The notes below the pieces were generated by a model, which was given only the letters and a program-made list of their open reading frames with translations, had not been told where the DNA came from and searched no databases. Shown piece after piece: positions 16,021 through 56,253 of a stretch of 64,000 nucleotides of DNA. Every line of letters begins with the position of its first letter. Position 1 is the stretch's first letter. The stretch lies in the NCBI GenBank assembly GCA_019096065.1, contig JAGUCH010000004.1, positions 2,666,001 through 2,730,000 of the forward strand, written 5' to 3'. A program made the position numbers and the translations under genes. This DNA comes from Paracyclopina nana (lineage: Eukaryota > Arthropoda > Copepoda > Cyclopoida > Cyclopettidae).

Positions 16021-16712
16021 GCTGGTCTCTCAGCTAGTCCAGTCTCAGTGAGTCCAGTCTCAGCGAGTCCAGTCTCGGCGAGTCCAGTCTCAGCGAGTCC
16101 AGTCTCAGCGAGTCCAGTCTCAGCGAGTCCAGTCTCTGCGAGTCCAGTCTCAGCGAGTTCAGTCTCAACCTGTCCAGTCTCACATTGTCAAATCTCAGCC
16201 AATCCAGTCTCAGCCAGTTGAGTCTCAGCCGGTCCAGTCTCAGCCGGTCCAGTCTCAGCCGGTCCAGTCTCAGCCGGTCCAGTCTCAGAGAGTCCAGTCT
16301 CAGCAAGTCGTCTCAGCGAGTTCAGTCTCAGTGAGTTCAGTCTCAGCGAGTCCAGTCTCAGCGAGTCCAGTCTCAGTGGGTCCAGTCTCAACCTGTCCAG
16401 TCTCACATTGTCCAATCTCAGCCAGTCCAGTCTCAGCCGGTCTAGTCTCAGCCAGTCCAGTCTCAGTGGGTCCAGTCTCAGCCGGTCCAGTCTCAGCCAG
16501 TCCAGTCTCAGCCGGTCCAGTCTCAGCCGGTCCAGTCTATAAAATTTAGATGGAGCAATCAGAGAAGGTTCAGTCTCAGCCAGTCCAGTCTCAGCCGGTC
16601 CAGTCTCAGCCAGTCCAGTCTCCACTGGTCCAGTCTCAGCCGGTCCAGTCTCAGCCGGTCCAGTCTATGAAATTCAGATGGAGCAATCAGAGAAGGTTCA
16701 GTCTCAGCTAGT
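16021..16712 (+). repeat. 15-bp minisatellite, unit CCAGTCTCAGCSRGT
   Basis: About 45 tandem 15-bp units built on AGTCCAGTCTCAGC-G/C. The first part is dominated by CGAGT variants and the later part by CCGGT/CCAGT variants. Because 15 is a multiple of three, most frames stay open on both strands, giving pseudo-proteins of SASPV (plus) or RLDSL/ETGLA (minus) pentapeptides. I regard these as by-products, not genes. There is higher-order structure: a block with TCAACCTGTCCAGTCTCACA recurs 222 bp apart (about 16167 and 16389), and a non-repeat insert ending GATGGAGCAATCAGAGAAGG recurs 126 bp apart (about 16540 and 16666). Confidence 0.95.
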
Positions 16713-48300: not shown

Positions 48301-48561
48301 TGCTGTCAGTTTAATGAGTACCACAGTATCAATTAACCGGAGATTTTTGTAAGGTTTTTCTTTCCAAAAAATAACTGCATAGTTTGACTGGCTGTTAAAT
48401 GAAGGGAAATGGCATTTTTATTCCCATGTAGGTTCATTATCGCAATTACAATATTTTGTCTTCAAAAAAAGCAGGCATTAAAAAGTACTGCAATTTATGG
48501 CTCGATCGCATAAATCTACATAGCCCTTAGATGATTTAAGAAAGAATACTGCTTTTTTCAT
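45382..48561. other. NOSTRIN 5' UTR intron and upstream region
   Basis: No coding exon is supported. The coding exon begins at an acceptor (ATTTTCAG at 45389). The first exon is probably the non-coding one at 47211. The remainder from about 47450 to 48561 is A/T-rich and without a recognisable gene. Frames at 46110-46343 and 46925-47173 have no domain. Confidence 0.5.
47211..47440 (-). other. Probable non-coding first exon of NOSTRIN
   Basis: On minus, AAAGCGATTG is followed by the donor GTAAGCAAC at 47210, and the matching acceptor is at 45389, giving an intron of about 1.8 kb. The upstream limit is uncertain. It carries a short upstream frame whose relevance is unclear. Confidence 0.4.
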
Positions 48562-50534
48562 TTTATGGTTTTTCTTTTACGGTGTGTTAGCTTTGGCACA
48601 TATTTACAGTTGCTGGCTGATGAGAAACAGCTCAAGAAGTTATGGGCCATAATTTACTCCTACTCGTTTTCCAAAAAGGAATTTAATGAAGATATCTAAG
48701 GAGGGTGTATCACAAAAACGTGAATTCGTAAAATTAAAGCTTATCGTGAAATACTCTGTCTCTCGACGGTGCATTAGTAAATATTTTATCAAAGTAGATA
48801 ATTATGGTTTAAAGCGGGTTGTGCTTCATATTAAATGAAATATTAAACGTTGAATGAACTAGTGATTAGTCAGGTTGTTTGCTGAAGTTGAGCTCAACAG
48901 ATCGGTACAAACATGGAAAATCTGCATAGCACATACAATTACACAATTACATAAGACCAGTTAAGTCAGATTGAACTGAGTACGCGAGCCAGCTAATAAT
49001 TCAAGTGGCGTCTTCTGTCTTCACTATGGTAATTTTCGTTGTTAGAACTGCATATTACCTGTGTCTTCACAAAGCTGATTTTTGGTAATTTGAACTAAAT
49101 ACACATAATATACGTGGTTGCCCATTTCACGGTAAAAATCTGAAAATCGCACATATATTTGTGATTTTCACATTCGTGCTTTTAGGCAACGTAATCGGAC
49201 ATGTTGCACCAAAAACTAGCACGAGATCTGCAGGTAAAAGAATTGATTTTTTAAATTTGTGGGGTCGTGTTATACCGAAAAGTATGATTTTTTATAGCTT
49301 CTTGAATGAAAAAATAATCTGCAATGTGGAGCCAAAAAGAGAGCTTAAAGCCAACAATTTGCAACTTCTGAGCTACGTTCTTGGCCAAAATGACCAAATA
49401 TTAGCGCAAACGTGTGCTTTTGGGCAATGGGCACCCTCCATTTTTATTTTCTATGTAATAATATGACGAAGAGAGCTGAAAAATATAGTTGCCAGATAAT
49501 CTTCAGCTCGAGTTTAATTTTTACGAAAGCCGAAAAAACTAGACTCTCTATGATCTAGAAAGGCGCTTCCATTACATATGTATCCGCTCCTTATAAAAGA
49601 GACGAATTTAAAGACCACACAGTGCATTTCTCTCTTCGTCTTACACTCATACAAATACCTCGCCAAAAAAATGAACAACTCCACAGAAATGACTGAGGCC
49701 AATTTGTACTGTGATCCAGGAGCTCCGAATTGGCTCAAAGTCATAATGACCATCCCATGGCTTATCAGTGTGTCAACTTCCATTTTTTTACTGGCTGTAG
49801 CAAAGTACGAGCTCAGTGGAGCCATGGGACACTACAGGCCCCTCATCAACCAGCTCACTTCATTCACAAACATCACTGTGAGTACATCTGACCGGATTTT
49901 ACGCTACCGAAGTTATAAATGAATTTGCTATCTATTGTAGAGCTTTTTGTTTGTCATGATTGTTAGCACGACAGACTTGGCTCGATTTATCCTTGGCCCA
50001 CTTCCAATGACCATTTGCGATCTGAATTACATCTGCAAAATTGCCCTCAGCAACGCAGTAATGTTCCTCTTTCTGTTCATCTCCTGCACAAAATTCATGT
50101 TCATTTGCGTATGGAAAAATATCCCGTTCATGGATGATTCCTTCATTGCTTTCTTCTTGGCTTTCGAATCGTGGCTCTTTGGGCTGCTGTCAGCTCTGGC
50201 TAAATTCTACTTGCCTGGAAGGAAAGTTTTCAACCAGGTAAGCAAATTTTTTTTAAAACTGCCTAAAAATTAATTTTAACGTTGTTCTACTCAAGTCTTA
50301 CTGCTATGGAATCTACTACCAGTCCTGGAACGAAATTCCTCCCAAATACAAAATTGAGGCTTACATCACTGGCATCCCTTTCTTGATCCATATCTTCGTG
50401 ACAATCCTCATAACTGTGGCAAAGATTAAGCAAGAGAGAGCTGACAGAGTTCAAGCCGTAGCGGTGGCTCCAAAATCTCCCAGGAGAGACTCACCCAAAA
50501 GCCTTGGAAGCATGATCCAGAATTTTCTCCTTCT
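48562..50534. repeat. Left arm of a 1,973-bp inverted repeat
   Basis: This segment is repeated in inverted orientation at 51471-53443 with no net length difference (paired coordinates always sum to 102,005). I found one substitution (49525 G versus the complement at 52480). It contains 1.1 kb of upstream sequence, the promoter, exons 1-2 and most of exon 3 of the seven-transmembrane gene. Confidence 0.95.
49592..49599 (+). promoter_or_regulatory. TATA box of the seven-transmembrane gene
   Basis: TATAAAAG is followed about 30 bp later by CACACAGTGCA, a plausible initiator, and then the ATG at 49671, giving a short 5' UTR of about 50 bases. The inverted copy carries the same box at 52406-52413. 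Confidence 0.65.
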
Positions 50535-50777
50535 CTTTGGCTTTTTTATCTCAAGTGCACTCTTTGCTGACTTGAACAAGTTCGTGCTGATCCATATCAA
50601 AACGACATACTCAGCTTAACTTCCTAATGGTGTTCTTTTTTCAGTGTCGGTCCAGATAAGTGGAACAAGTTTCCTTACGTTGCTTACCACTACTTCAACC
50701 ATTTCATAAGCACTGGAATCTTTTCAATCATCGGAGCGCTGGTCCAGTGGAAGTCAATCAGGCAGCTTTTTCAATAA
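49671..50777 (+). CDS. Small seven-transmembrane protein (306 aa)
   Basis: Four exons: 49671-49877, 49941-50237, 50296-50579 and 50645-50777. Seven hydrophobic spans can be counted: about residues 24-45, 70-92, 102-125, 137-158, 195-216, 248-264 and 281-300. A short N-terminus before the first span has an N-glycosylation site (NNST) and a Cys; the loop between spans 5 and 6 is basic and Ser-rich (KSPRRDSPKS), as expected for a cytosolic GPCR-like loop. I see no DRY or NPxxY motif, so it is not a typical rhodopsin-class receptor; it may be a lineage-specific chemoreceptor-like or other 7TM protein. A TATA box precedes the ATG. An in-frame upstream extension to 49578 would begin upstream of the TATA box, so it is rejected. 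The AATAAA at 50815 is a likely poly(A) signal. The last intron uses donor GTTCGT. Most of the gene is repeated in inverted orientation downstream. Confidence 0.8.
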
Positions 50778-51465
50778 ATTGGCTGGTTGAGGACAAAGTC
50801 TAGTATCATTTTTAAATAAATCTACCTCTTCTTAATAATGTTTCGTTCAAAAATATAATTGCACAATACTTATAAAAGTAGCGTTCTAAAATTGAGTGCG
50901 TACCCTACCCTTAAAGCTTTAGAAAAGACTTGATAAAAGCCTCGCAAAATAAATTATGGCATGAAATGTAACGCACCAGTAAACCAGGATTTCGCCACCG
51001 GAAAAGCCATTTTTCTAAGCTGACCAGATTTGGGATAGAAGGTACGATCCATCTTGGTACGATCAAGTGAACTTGGCGTCAGTTTTACCTAAAGACCAGT
51101 ATGTACTGGTTAGTCAGTGACGTCACACACACTACCTCTAAAAGCGAGGTTGAGATACTGACATGGCGATTGTTTCGCCTGGAAGCTCAGCATTTTTCAA
51201 CTGCAGTTGGTCTCTTTTGTTCGTGTCTGATTTATGAAAATTCTGCTGATAAATTGCGTAGTGTCTTCTGATATAAAAAGTGGAATGCTTCATCTCATAC
51301 AGTGAAATTAATGGTGCCCATGTTGCCACCTCCACGAGGGCAAAGTCTTTTCTGACACAATCATGGGCTCCTCCTCGTCTCCAATGCAATGCCTGCAGCC
51401 AAAGAAGTGTTCCGGATCCCAGGTTTGCTTCACCGTCAGCAATCGTGCGTAAGTCTCCGCATCCC
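50519..51465. repeat. Direct repeat copy 1 (segment B, 947 bp)
   Basis: This segment recurs in the same orientation at 53443-54389 (offset 2,924 bp) with no difference noticed. It carries the end of exon 3, exon 4 and the 3' end of the seven-transmembrane gene (plus), and on minus the last ~51 codons and 3' UTR of the FAD oxidase gene. The first ~16 bp overlap the end of the inverted-repeat left arm. Confidence 0.95.
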
Positions 51466-52334
51466 GCATCAGAAGGAGAAAATTCTGGATCATGCTTCCA
51501 AGGCTTTTGGGTGAGTCTCTCCTGGGAGATTTTGGAGCCACCGCTACGGCTTGAACTCTGTCAGCTCTCTCTTGCTTAATCTTTGCCACAGTTATGAGGA
51601 TTGTCACGAAGATATGGATCAAGAAAGGGATGCCAGTGATGTAAGCCTCAATTTTGTATTTGGGAGGAATTTCGTTCCAGGACTGGTAGTAGATTCCATA
51701 GCAGTAAGACTTGAGTAGAACAACGTTAAAATTAATTTTTAGGCAGTTTTAAAAAAAATTTGCTTACCTGGTTGAAAACTTTCCTTCCAGGCAAGTAGAA
51801 TTTAGCCAGAGCTGACAGCAGCCCAAAGAGCCACGATTCGAAAGCCAAGAAGAAAGCAATGAAGGAATCATCCATGAACGGGATATTTTTCCATACGCAA
51901 ATGAACATGAATTTTGTGCAGGAGATGAACAGAAAGAGGAACATTACTGCGTTGCTGAGGGCAATTTTGCAGATGTAATTCAGATCGCAAATGGTCATTG
52001 GAAGTGGGCCAAGGATAAATCGAGCCAAGTCTGTCGTGCTAACAATCATGACAAACAAAAAGCTCTACAATAGATAGCAAATTCATTTATAACTTCGGTA
52101 GCGTAAAATCCGGTCAGATGTACTCACAGTGATGTTTGTGAATGAAGTGAGCTGGTTGATGAGGGGCCTGTAGTGTCCCATGGCTCCACTGAGCTCGTAC
52201 TTTGCTACAGCCAGTAAAAAAATGGAAGTTGACACACTGATAAGCCATGGGATGGTCATTATGACTTTGAGCCAATTCGGAGCTCCTGGATCACAGTACA
52301 AATTGGCCTCAGTCATTTCTGTGGAGTTGTTCAT
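51308..52334 (-). CDS. Chimeric 7TM / FAD-oxidase C-terminus gene (301 aa)
   Basis: Exons on minus: 52334-52128, 52064-51768 and 51709-51308. The first two and most of the third are an inverted, essentially identical copy of the seven-transmembrane gene with its promoter. At 51471 the copy stops inside span 6 (QNFLLL), and after five inserted bases the frame continues directly into the last 51 residues of the FAD oxidase (DAETYARLL..., WDPEHFF), its stop codon and its 3' UTR. The predicted protein keeps five complete spans plus the first residues of span 6, and replaces the rest with a soluble BBE-type tail. Correct folding as a membrane protein is doubtful. It may be a pseudogene, a new gene or a haplotype-specific structure. 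Everything needed for transcription appears present: TATA box at 52406-52413, intact splice sites and a parent 3' end. Confidence 0.7.
51466..51470 (+). other. 5-bp insertion at the rearrangement junction
   Basis: GCATC lies between the end of segment B (CCGCATCCC) and the start of the inverted arm (AGAAGGAG). It is identical to GCATC in the bases just before the junction, a typical templated insertion. Confidence 0.8.
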
Positions 52335-53443
52335 TTTTTTGGCGAGGTATTTGTATGAGTGTAAGACGAAGAGAGAAATGCACTGTGTGGTCTTTAAATT
52401 CGTCTCTTTTATAAGGAGCGGATACATATGTAATGGAAGCGCCTTTCTAGATCATAGAGAGTCTAGTTTTTTCGGCTTTTGTAAAAATTAAACTCGAGCT
52501 GAAGATTATCTGGCAACTATATTTTTCAGCTCTCTTCGTCATATTATTACATAGAAAATAAAAATGGAGGGTGCCCATTGCCCAAAAGCACACGTTTGCG
52601 CTAATATTTGGTCATTTTGGCCAAGAACGTAGCTCAGAAGTTGCAAATTGTTGGCTTTAAGCTCTCTTTTTGGCTCCACATTGCAGATTATTTTTTCATT
52701 CAAGAAGCTATAAAAAATCATACTTTTCGGTATAACACGACCCCACAAATTTAAAAAATCAATTCTTTTACCTGCAGATCTCGTGCTAGTTTTTGGTGCA
52801 ACATGTCCGATTACGTTGCCTAAAAGCACGAATGTGAAAATCACAAATATATGTGCGATTTTCAGATTTTTACCGTGAAATGGGCAACCACGTATATTAT
52901 GTGTATTTAGTTCAAATTACCAAAAATCAGCTTTGTGAAGACACAGGTAATATGCAGTTCTAACAACGAAAATTACCATAGTGAAGACAGAAGACGCCAC
53001 TTGAATTATTAGCTGGCTCGCGTACTCAGTTCAATCTGACTTAACTGGTCTTATGTAATTGTGTAATTGTATGTGCTATGCAGATTTTCCATGTTTGTAC
53101 CGATCTGTTGAGCTCAACTTCAGCAAACAACCTGACTAATCACTAGTTCATTCAACGTTTAATATTTCATTTAATATGAAGCACAACCCGCTTTAAACCA
53201 TAATTATCTACTTTGATAAAATATTTACTAATGCACCGTCGAGAGACAGAGTATTTCACGATAAGCTTTAATTTTACGAATTCACGTTTTTGTGATACAC
53301 CCTCCTTAGATATCTTCATTAAATTCCTTTTTGGAAAACGAGTAGGAGTAAATTATGGCCCATAACTTCTTGAGCTGTTTCTCATCAGCCAGCAACTGTA
53401 AATATGTGCCAAAGCTAACACACCGTAAAAGAAAAACCATAAA
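51471..53443. repeat. Right arm of the 1,973-bp inverted repeat
   Basis: This is the reverse complement of 48562-50534. Its right end (…CCATAAA) joins segment B copy 2 with at most one or two bases of shared sequence. The stretch 52414-53443, upstream of the chimeric gene, holds the duplicated upstream region and no separate gene. Confidence 0.95.
52406..52413 (-). promoter_or_regulatory. TATA box of the chimeric gene
   Basis: This is the inverted copy of the TATAAAAG box at 49592-49599, at the same distance from the start codon. Confidence 0.6.
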
Positions 53444-53701
53444 GAATTTTCTCCTTCTCTTTGGCTTTTTTATCTCAAGTGCACTCTTTGCTGACTTGAA
53501 CAAGTTCGTGCTGATCCATATCAAAACGACATACTCAGCTTAACTTCCTAATGGTGTTCTTTTTTCAGTGTCGGTCCAGATAAGTGGAACAAGTTTCCTT
53601 ACGTTGCTTACCACTACTTCAACCATTTCATAAGCACTGGAATCTTTTCAATCATCGGAGCGCTGGTCCAGTGGAAGTCAATCAGGCAGCTTTTTCAATA
53701 A
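53444..53701 (+). pseudogene. Orphan 3' exons of the seven-transmembrane gene
   Basis: This second copy of the end of exon 3 (from 53444) and exon 4 (53569-53701) lacks exons 1-2, the promoter and the start. The sequence before it is the inverted arm, which offers no upstream exon in this orientation. It is a broken duplicate. Confidence 0.8.
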
Positions 53702-54231
53702 ATTGGCTGGTTGAGGACAAAGTCTAGTATCATTTTTAAATAAATCTACCTCTTCTTAATAATGTTTCGTTCAAAAATATAATTGCACAATACTTATAAA
53801 AGTAGCGTTCTAAAATTGAGTGCGTACCCTACCCTTAAAGCTTTAGAAAAGACTTGATAAAAGCCTCGCAAAATAAATTATGGCATGAAATGTAACGCAC
53901 CAGTAAACCAGGATTTCGCCACCGGAAAAGCCATTTTTCTAAGCTGACCAGATTTGGGATAGAAGGTACGATCCATCTTGGTACGATCAAGTGAACTTGG
54001 CGTCAGTTTTACCTAAAGACCAGTATGTACTGGTTAGTCAGTGACGTCACACACACTACCTCTAAAAGCGAGGTTGAGATACTGACATGGCGATTGTTTC
54101 GCCTGGAAGCTCAGCATTTTTCAACTGCAGTTGGTCTCTTTTGTTCGTGTCTGATTTATGAAAATTCTGCTGATAAATTGCGTAGTGTCTTCTGATATAA
54201 AAAGTGGAATGCTTCATCTCATACAGTGAAA
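53702..54231. other. 3' region between converging gene ends
   Basis: This holds the 3' sequence of the orphan exons (AATAAA at 53739-53744) and the 3' UTR of the FAD oxidase. It is identical to 50778-51307. No additional gene is seen. Confidence 0.6.
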
Positions 54232-56253
54232 TTAATGGTGCCCATGTTGCCACCTCCACGAGGGCAAAGTCTTTTCTGACACAATCATGGGCTCCTCCTC
54301 GTCTCCAATGCAATGCCTGCAGCCAAAGAAGTGTTCCGGATCCCAGGTTTGCTTCACCGTCAGCAATCGTGCGTAAGTCTCCGCATCCCACAGCCTATTT
54401 TTCCAATCTTCCATGGTGTACTCCGACTCGCTGTAATAGGAGCCCTCTCCATGCTGGTACAACTGTGGTGCAACCACTTCATGAATGAAAGCAGCTTTAG
54501 ACTCCCAATCCAAGTCCCCATTCAAATTCGCACCAGAACTTGTGGTGAAATGCAAGTCAGCCTCTCTGAATGTTTTGGAAATGGCAGTGCCTAAATTATT
54601 AGCCAGAATTAAGCCAGCATTTTTTCTGTAATGAATACATTATACCTGTTGCGCCATTGTCATCCTTGGGCAATGTCAAGTAAAGCATGTAGTGCCCGAT
54701 GCAAGGAACTGAGTAGTCACCACTCATATAGCATCGTGGCACCCAAACGCTCCAGATGGACTCTGAAATTTCCTTGGATTTTTCCAGAATGGTAGTCTTG
54801 TTGAAGAGGACAGAAGCCCACACGTCGTATTTTTCAGCAACGTAAATTGATTCGGGCGTCTGGGATTTGGTCTTTTCAAAATAGGTGTTGTAAATGTTGA
54901 TGCTCCAATCAATTTTCTGATCCGGATGCAAAGCGAAGAAAGTGTTTTGAAGGCTTTTGGCATCTTCATCATCGTTTAGGCCAACATACATCATTTCAGC
55001 CAAAATGACATAATACTCATCTTCTGCAATTTAACAGTCAATTATTATAATATTTGAGAGTGACTTCTTAGCTACTCTACCTCCATTTGGTTGAACTAGG
55101 AAATAGCCACTCCAGTGTCTTGATGATTCTGCCGCCCAAGAAATGAACGCTTCAGTCAAGGAGGTTGCCAATGCTCCATTGTCTTGAGAGAAGACTCCTC
55201 TCCACACGGCATTGGTCACTGTGTAGCAGGCTTCTTTGCAGCCATATGGATTATAATGCAACTTGAAGGTTATAGCAGTGACTACTCCCCATGGCCCTGC
55301 TCCACCTCCTCGCAAAGCCCAAAATAAGTCATCATTCTCCAGTGCTTCCATCTTGGTGCCATCGGCTGATTCAATTGTAGTTCCGTTGGAGTTGGCATGA
55401 ATGAAGCTTCCATCTGGGCCAACAAGCTCAACTTCAAGAATCTGATCAACTCCAAGGCCAAAGAATGGTCCCAAGGGGCTATGACCTCCACCAAGGGACC
55501 ATCCAACCACTCCAACCTCAGCAGCATGACCGGTCACGACAACTCTGCCATACTCATTTACCTCCTCTTGAACGCCTTTCAGTTGAAACTTTGAAGTGCC
55601 CCAAGTCATGCCTGAGCCTATTCTGACAACCTACAGAAAAAGATGGGCTAGTCGAAATTGCGCTTGATGACCTAATAATTTTTTACTCCGGCTTCATTTC
55701 CAAACCTATTGGAAGGGTCGATGTCGATGTCAAGACTTCGCAGACATGTTGTCCTAACCAGCAAGCCGTTAGGACCCAATGGAGCATTTCTGTCCTGGAA
55801 CTCGTGTCCAGTGGAGAACACAGAAAAGGCCAAATTATGCTTGGCTGCAAATTGCACAGCTGCGGACACATCTTGGTCATTTCTGGGCAGAATGGTGAAG
55901 AAAGGTGCGAGTTCTGTCACATATGTTCTCTGTAGCATCAAATCATGAGCAAATATGAGAGGACCTAGCTCATTATACCTTAATTGAAAAAGATTTTATG
56001 CAGTTAATGGGAAGAAAAATTGGCAAATAATTTGGATACCAAGTGTTGAAAATCAGGGACCTTTTTCTTCGTGAGAAGTGAACGTTGGAACTGACTGTAG
56101 ACACTCGCTTGAGGGAGAACTCAGGGAAGCCTTGAACTGGTTAATCTCATCCTTGCTTGGCCAGCATGCTTCATTTGGCTGACAATAGGTCCTGCATTGT
56201 ATCAGGCCAAAGCAAGAGAAAAGTACGAGCAGTGATTTCACGAAGTGATTCAT
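54232..56253 (-). CDS. Secreted berberine-bridge-like FAD oxidase (585 aa)
   Basis: Five exons on minus: 56253-56061, 55964-55687, 55630-55081, 55023-54646 and 54590-54232. It begins with a signal peptide (residues 1-20), then a CQPNEACWPS motif typical of secreted FAD-linked oxidases, best known from fungi. The FAD-binding (PCMH-type) domain spans about residues 75-255: STGHEF with His118 at the usual covalent flavin position, and VGVVGWSLGGGHSPLGP followed by GLGVDQILEVELVGPDG. Ala193 stands where bicovalent enzymes have Cys, so single covalent FAD linkage is expected. The C-terminal BBE domain ends with YARLLTVKQTWDPEHFF (about 538-555). The family oxidises alcohols, sugars or alkaloids with O2, releasing H2O2; the substrate here is unknown. 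The acceptor of exon 2 was chosen after CTAG at 55965 to keep frame. The gene is rare among animals. Confidence 0.88.

Follow-up and report, generated by a model that had tools for sequence, protein, structure and literature searches.

An apparently young local duplication–inversion in the copepod Paracyclopina nana, with a possible in-frame fusion of two predicted genes

The genome assembly of the copepod Paracyclopina nana (GCA_019096065.1) contains, within a 64,000-nucleotide stretch of contig JAGUCH010000004.1 (positions 2,666,001–2,730,000; the whole of this stretch is hereafter the window), a 5,828-bp block at window positions 48562–54389 in which a segment A is followed by a segment B, an inverted (reverse-complement) copy of A (rcA), and a second, direct copy of B. 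With its left and right flanks denoted X and Y, the locus reads X-A-B-rcA-B-Y. The block looks like the result of a known kind of DNA-repair accident and, if the assembly is right, is a clean and young example of it—one that could have added an in-frame fusion of two predicted genes, namely a putative seven-transmembrane (7TM) gene and an oxidase gene, with one intact copy of each parent gene retained.

Segment A (48562–50534, + strand) carries the first three exons of the putative 7TM gene, the third of them nearly complete, preceded by a 1.1-kb upstream region, and self-comparison showed its inverted copy (51471–53443, − strand) to differ from it by 1 mismatch in 1,973 bp. Segment B (50519–51465, + strand) includes the end of the 7TM gene and, at 51308–51465 on the − strand, the 3′ portion of the oxidase gene's last exon. 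Its direct copy (53443–54389, + strand) is identical over 947 bp (0 mismatches); there, an orphan 7TM gene 3′ end is present, and the intact oxidase gene has its 3′ portion. Both recurrences had been claimed in a preliminary description of this DNA, down to the equal lengths of the A copies and their single substitution, and self-comparison bore each of them out. The coordinates given there for the two segments were likewise correct, with the refinement that A and B overlap by 16 bp (50519–50534), and that this stretch is consequently present in three copies, the others lying at 51471–51486 (inverted) and 53443–53458 (direct). The entire block can be written as 48562–51465, followed by GCATC (51466–51470), the reverse complement of 48562–50534, and 50520–51465, with only base 52480 departing from this description. 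That sole substitution between the A copies, G at 49525 versus A (read in the A orientation) at 52480, is a CpG/CpA difference located 146 bp upstream of a predicted start codon.

Such kilobase-long near-identity is far beyond chance. A search of the genome (91.95 Mb in 10 contigs; all copy counts from these searches are lower bounds) returned two full copies of A and two of B, all inside the block. The 1.5-kb left flank was found in one full copy, its only other match being 55 bp at 89% identity, and the 1.5-kb right flank also in one full copy, its only other match (contig C3) being at 69%; these searches turned up no additional sequence nearly identical to A, B, or either flank elsewhere. 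In a protein comparison, a kinesin reading frame from another stretch of the genome matched the copepod Tigriopus californicus at 79% identity, the one NCBI-named match among the best 120 of 7,987, and other matches reached 90%. COX1 gave no match in the assembly, which carries no weight, as mitochondrial DNA may be absent from it or may follow a different code. Other self-matches in the window, at E values up to 1e-10, were limited to a minisatellite at 16 kb and one 146-bp pair at 79% identity. As a control, self-comparison was applied to 20 further 10-kb stretches from this genome, with pairs counted at a length of at least 150 bp and an identity of at least 95%: 19 of the 20 contained no such near-identical pair, and the remaining stretch (L035) gave two rows that both belonged to a single tandem array, its period being about 123 bp.

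The order X-A-B-Y is likely to be ancestral, judging from the predicted genes and their homologues, since these run contiguously across both the A/B boundary (7TM) and the B/Y boundary (oxidase). The intact putative 7TM gene (49671–50777, + strand; 306 amino acids, with predicted exons at 49671–49877, 49941–50237, 50296–50579, and 50645–50777) was delineated by gene model, Pfam comparison, and homologue alignment, and itself crosses the A/B boundary, which is why the contiguity of A and B is taken as ancestral. Its product gave a weak match to the rhodopsin-type family 7tm_1 (E = 0.0035, 17.3 bits, under the cut-off of 30.5) and showed six separate hydrophobic segments above threshold in a hydropathy profile. 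The homologue P0001, which has the rhodopsin-type 7TM domain, aligns to residues 90–262 at 60% identity, and does so across the A/B point, which falls at residues 243–248; two tandem paralogues of the gene on another contig (C5, L015, 6693000–6702500) also align across this point. These two paralogues are about 78–81% identical to each other in aligned DNA. The other parent, a predicted gene for an oxidase of the flavin adenine dinucleotide (FAD)/berberine-bridge type, is intact at 54232–56253 on the − strand (predicted exons 56253–56084, 55978–55687, 55630–55081, 55023–54646, and 54590–54232) and spans the B/Y boundary at 54389, with the homologue P0002 aligning across that point at residue 531. 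The exon 1/2 boundary of the oxidase gene (55687–56084) is uncertain because the homologue P0003, aligned by reading, has extra residues there; an exon may have been missed, or the gene may have been altered.

Relative to X-A-B-Y, the block contains two novel adjacencies: 50534 with 51465, both of which are right ends, separated by 5 nt (junction J1), and 48562 with 50519, both of which are left ends (junction J2). At J1 there is no microhomology, and the insert GCATC (51466–51470) continues a tandem of period 7 that enters from B, a form of templating that only 1.5% of random 5-mers would display. At J2 (53443), where the left end of inverted A (48562) meets 50519, 1 bp is shared. Neither junction showed microhomeology in an ungapped comparison—the flanks being at most 3/5 identical on either side—or any poly(A). 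Each novel junction has one of its ends in the 16-bp site 50519–50534. Two independent points in a span of 2,904 bp were found by simulation to fall within 16 bp of each other with a chance of 0.011, the corresponding value of d/L, a yardstick for overlapping breakpoints taken from PMC12807874, being 0.0055. Apart from the junctions, a 17-nt direct repeat of 88% identity (48347–48363 and 48561–48577) has its second copy on the left end of segment A, and may be a chance match.

The explanation favored here, tentatively and at somewhat less than even confidence, is an inverted local capture at one break, followed by a flip of B. Starting from X-A-B-Y, a recent local rearrangement would have begun with a DNA break whose ends lay 16 bp apart, at 50519–50534, within the third exon of the predicted 7TM gene. 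Repair of this break would have captured an inverted copy of the surrounding 2.9 kb (48562–51465), for instance from the sister chromatid, with the 16 bp filled in, and the ends would have been joined with little or no microhomology, one of them with an insert of 5 nt made by slippage, so that the locus read X-A-rcB-rcA-B-Y. The inverted A arms, 1,973 bp long, would then have undergone homologous recombination that flipped B and produced the observed X-A-B-rcA-B-Y, leaving one intact 7TM gene, one intact oxidase gene, and an in-frame fusion with the upstream sequence of the former and the stop codon of the latter. The proximity of the breakpoints 50519 and 50534, improbable as a coincidence (1.1%, or 0.55% by d/L), is what suggests a single break site that received an inverted 48562–51465; together with the scarcity of microhomology at near-blunt joins, landings this close lean toward end joining at one staggered break, a route that the tandem-templated insert also suits.

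Several considerations weigh against this reading. The flip is an additional step, unneeded by two-switch replication. If repair proceeded by replication, the opening of both strands during the first switch could tie the second landing to the same site, and the 1% chance, which assumes independence, is therefore not decisive. Overlaps of at least 10 bp were rare among the cancer insertions described in PMC12807874 (<5%). Finally, the ancestral order is based on gene homology and not on an unrearranged allele.

The replication model in question—fork stalling and template switching or microhomology-mediated break-induced replication (FoSTeS/MMBIR), in which two template switches occur in one replication-based repair event—is possible, with perhaps one chance in three of being correct. 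Synthesis would run forward to 51465, slip by 7 nt, follow the reverse strand from 50534 to 48562, and resume forward from 50519; this path rebuilds the block in a single event, without a flip, and the templated 5-nt insert suits a poorly processive polymerase. Of the features associated with MMBIR/FoSTeS, the small templated slippage insertion (GCATC, period 7) is present, and microhomology and ungapped microhomeology at the junctions are not, there being 1 bp at J2 and none at J1, which speaks against this route; nevertheless, blunt joins and insertions do occur in such events, with 5 of 57 join-points being one-base or blunt and 11 of 57 having insertions of 1–8 bp in PMC6902434. The geometry resembles that of the human DUP-NML-INV/DUP (duplication–normal–inverted duplication) and DUP-TRP/INV-DUP (duplication–inverted triplication–duplication) arrays described in PMC6902434 and PMC9851044. 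A difficulty is that both landings would fall inside the same 16 bp, for which the chance is about 1% if they are independent, and about which the linkage noted above leaves some latitude.

The order of the segments, which according to the preliminary description two template switches would produce, does not by itself show that they took place. The forward-reverse-forward path is valid and does yield this order via two junctions. However, by our own derivation the two adjacencies fit three orders—A-B-rcA-B (observed), A-rcB-rcA-B, and A-rcB-A-B—which interconvert by recombination between inverted copies and all carry the same intact genes and fusion. Nor do the junctions alone separate staggered-break capture plus flip from two switches; the capture fits them at least as well.

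It is unlikely that the block is an assembly artefact, arising either from a chimeric molecule or from two alleles, one with A inverted, set end to end in the contig. Near-identity is the expected look of a false duplication, and no second haplotype was found in searches of the 10-contig assembly with A, B, and the flanks. On the other hand, the 5.8-kb structure is short enough for one long read, and near-identical pairs other than a tandem array did not occur in the control stretches. Chimeric molecules are, moreover, singletons that are normally removed by consensus. A simple haplotype inversion assembled end to end is disfavored, since the pieces meet at J1 without overlapping and with a templated insert, which would not be expected of end-to-end alleles.

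An inversion by staggered breaks in sister chromatids, with a middle segment of zero length and with A and B as the inverted duplications, seems highly improbable. Models of this type are described in PMC7584159, and by our own derivation the isomer A-rcB-rcA-B is formally a product of such an inversion, but kilobase staggers flanking nothing are contrived, and a single break accounts more simply for an overlap of 16 bp at one site. Insertion of a transposon or retrocopy was rejected because introns and intergenic DNA are retained, the joins are without poly(A), and no repeat pair linking the ends 48562 and 51465 was present among those listed (20 of 24 direct families and 25 of 31 inverted pairs).

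Among known rearrangement classes, four-point template-switch mutations follow a forward-reverse-forward path set by four points and are short-range, typically spanning tens of bases; the path here is alike, but its reverse run is about 2 kb. DUP-NML-INV/DUP arrays share with the block two junctions in cis, two duplicated segments of which the inverted one adjoins the direct one, and a small junction insertion. They differ in having a normal-copy spacer between the duplications, in place of which the block has the triplicated 16-bp overlap, and because of this overlap it is assigned only to the broad class of local duplication-inversions. In DUP-TRP/INV-DUP arrays, an inverted triplication lies between direct duplications, whereas here only 16 bp is triplicated and A is duplicated in inverted form. 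Both of these array types are known from human loci (PLP1, MECP2) and are disease-ascertained; the present block is on a kilobase scale, with no long repeats at its junctions. Breakage-replication/fusion, as set out in PMC12807874, is similar in that duplicated and inverted local pieces are joined at linked breakpoints, but its hallmark there is adjacent parallel breakpoints, whereas 50534 and 50519 face opposite ways with a 16-bp overlap, and the window has no sign of chromothripsis. The Drosophila inversions in PMC7584159 are similar in that inverted duplications arise from staggered breaks on one or two chromatids; here, by contrast, no unique segment is inverted, and the insert duplicates the sequence around the break itself. 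Overall, the block appears to be a real, young, and compact member of the broad duplication-inversion class.

The predicted fusion gene (51308–52334, − strand; exons 52334–52128, 52064–51768, and 51709–51308) would encode 301 amino acids: residues 1–248 of the 7TM protein, then M-R, and finally the oxidase's 51 C-terminal residues, ending at its native stop. Its 5′ part comes from the inverted A, which provides the 1.1-kb upstream region, the first two exons, and the third as far as residue 248; from there the frame runs through GATGC, the insert as read on the − strand, into the last exon of the oxidase, and is open throughout. Of the seven insert lengths from 0 to 6 nt, two (2 and 5) preserve the reading frame of the oxidase, so the prior for an in-frame join is about one in three. 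In a Pfam comparison, the fusion protein matched BBE at 21.9 bits (cut-off 20.6). When it was used as a query against 1,146 candidate proteins, a set from which the species' own proteins may be absent, two matches were obtained, P0001 and P0002, each covering one half only.

The fusion had no 7tm_1 match in Pfam at E values up to 0.1, and by hydropathy it loses the parent 7TM hydrophobic segment at 241–259. Past the stop, the − strand of B contains no AATAAA or ATTAAA, which is also the case for the parent oxidase. The in-frame join, expected about one time in three by chance, does not in itself point to expression. The fullest version of the scenario, in which a newborn working fusion of a receptor-like protein and an oxidase tail arose from single-break self-capture, with the parents spared and the locus flipping among the three arrangements, is given a low probability.

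Further repeated sequences were observed in the window. A short element with the core ACCAGTATGTACTGGTTAGTCAGTGACGTCA lies in both copies of B (51085–51150 and 54009–54074), not at a breakpoint, and 21 of the 25 matches of a genome search, a lower bound, fall on it; its core was found at 4 places outside the locus with up to 2 mismatches. By eye, several copies of the element have the form of a roughly 100-bp inverted repeat, apparently flanked in two cases by direct repeats of 8 bp, and thus resemble a hAT-like miniature inverted-repeat transposable element. In B, just one half seems to be present. The minisatellite at 16028–16666 consists of about 42 copies of a 15-bp unit, with an open reading frame on the − strand across much of the array (16188–16625).

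The near-identity of the copies fits a very young event, gene conversion, or an allelic structural variant, the three readings offered in the preliminary description. With 1 difference in about 2,920 sites between the copies, and 3e-9 substitutions per site in each generation, the event can be roughly dated to about 57,000 generations ago (Poisson range roughly 1,400–320,000); it would be older if gene conversion between the arms occurs. If real, the block offers a natural case on the kilobase scale that has hardly mutated and whose two junctions are exactly legible, and on which rival repair models consequently make different, testable predictions about the isomers present in the population. 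The possible in-frame fusion is the most interesting product of the rearrangement: one repair error may be able to fuse two convergent neighbors in frame, with neither of them lost.

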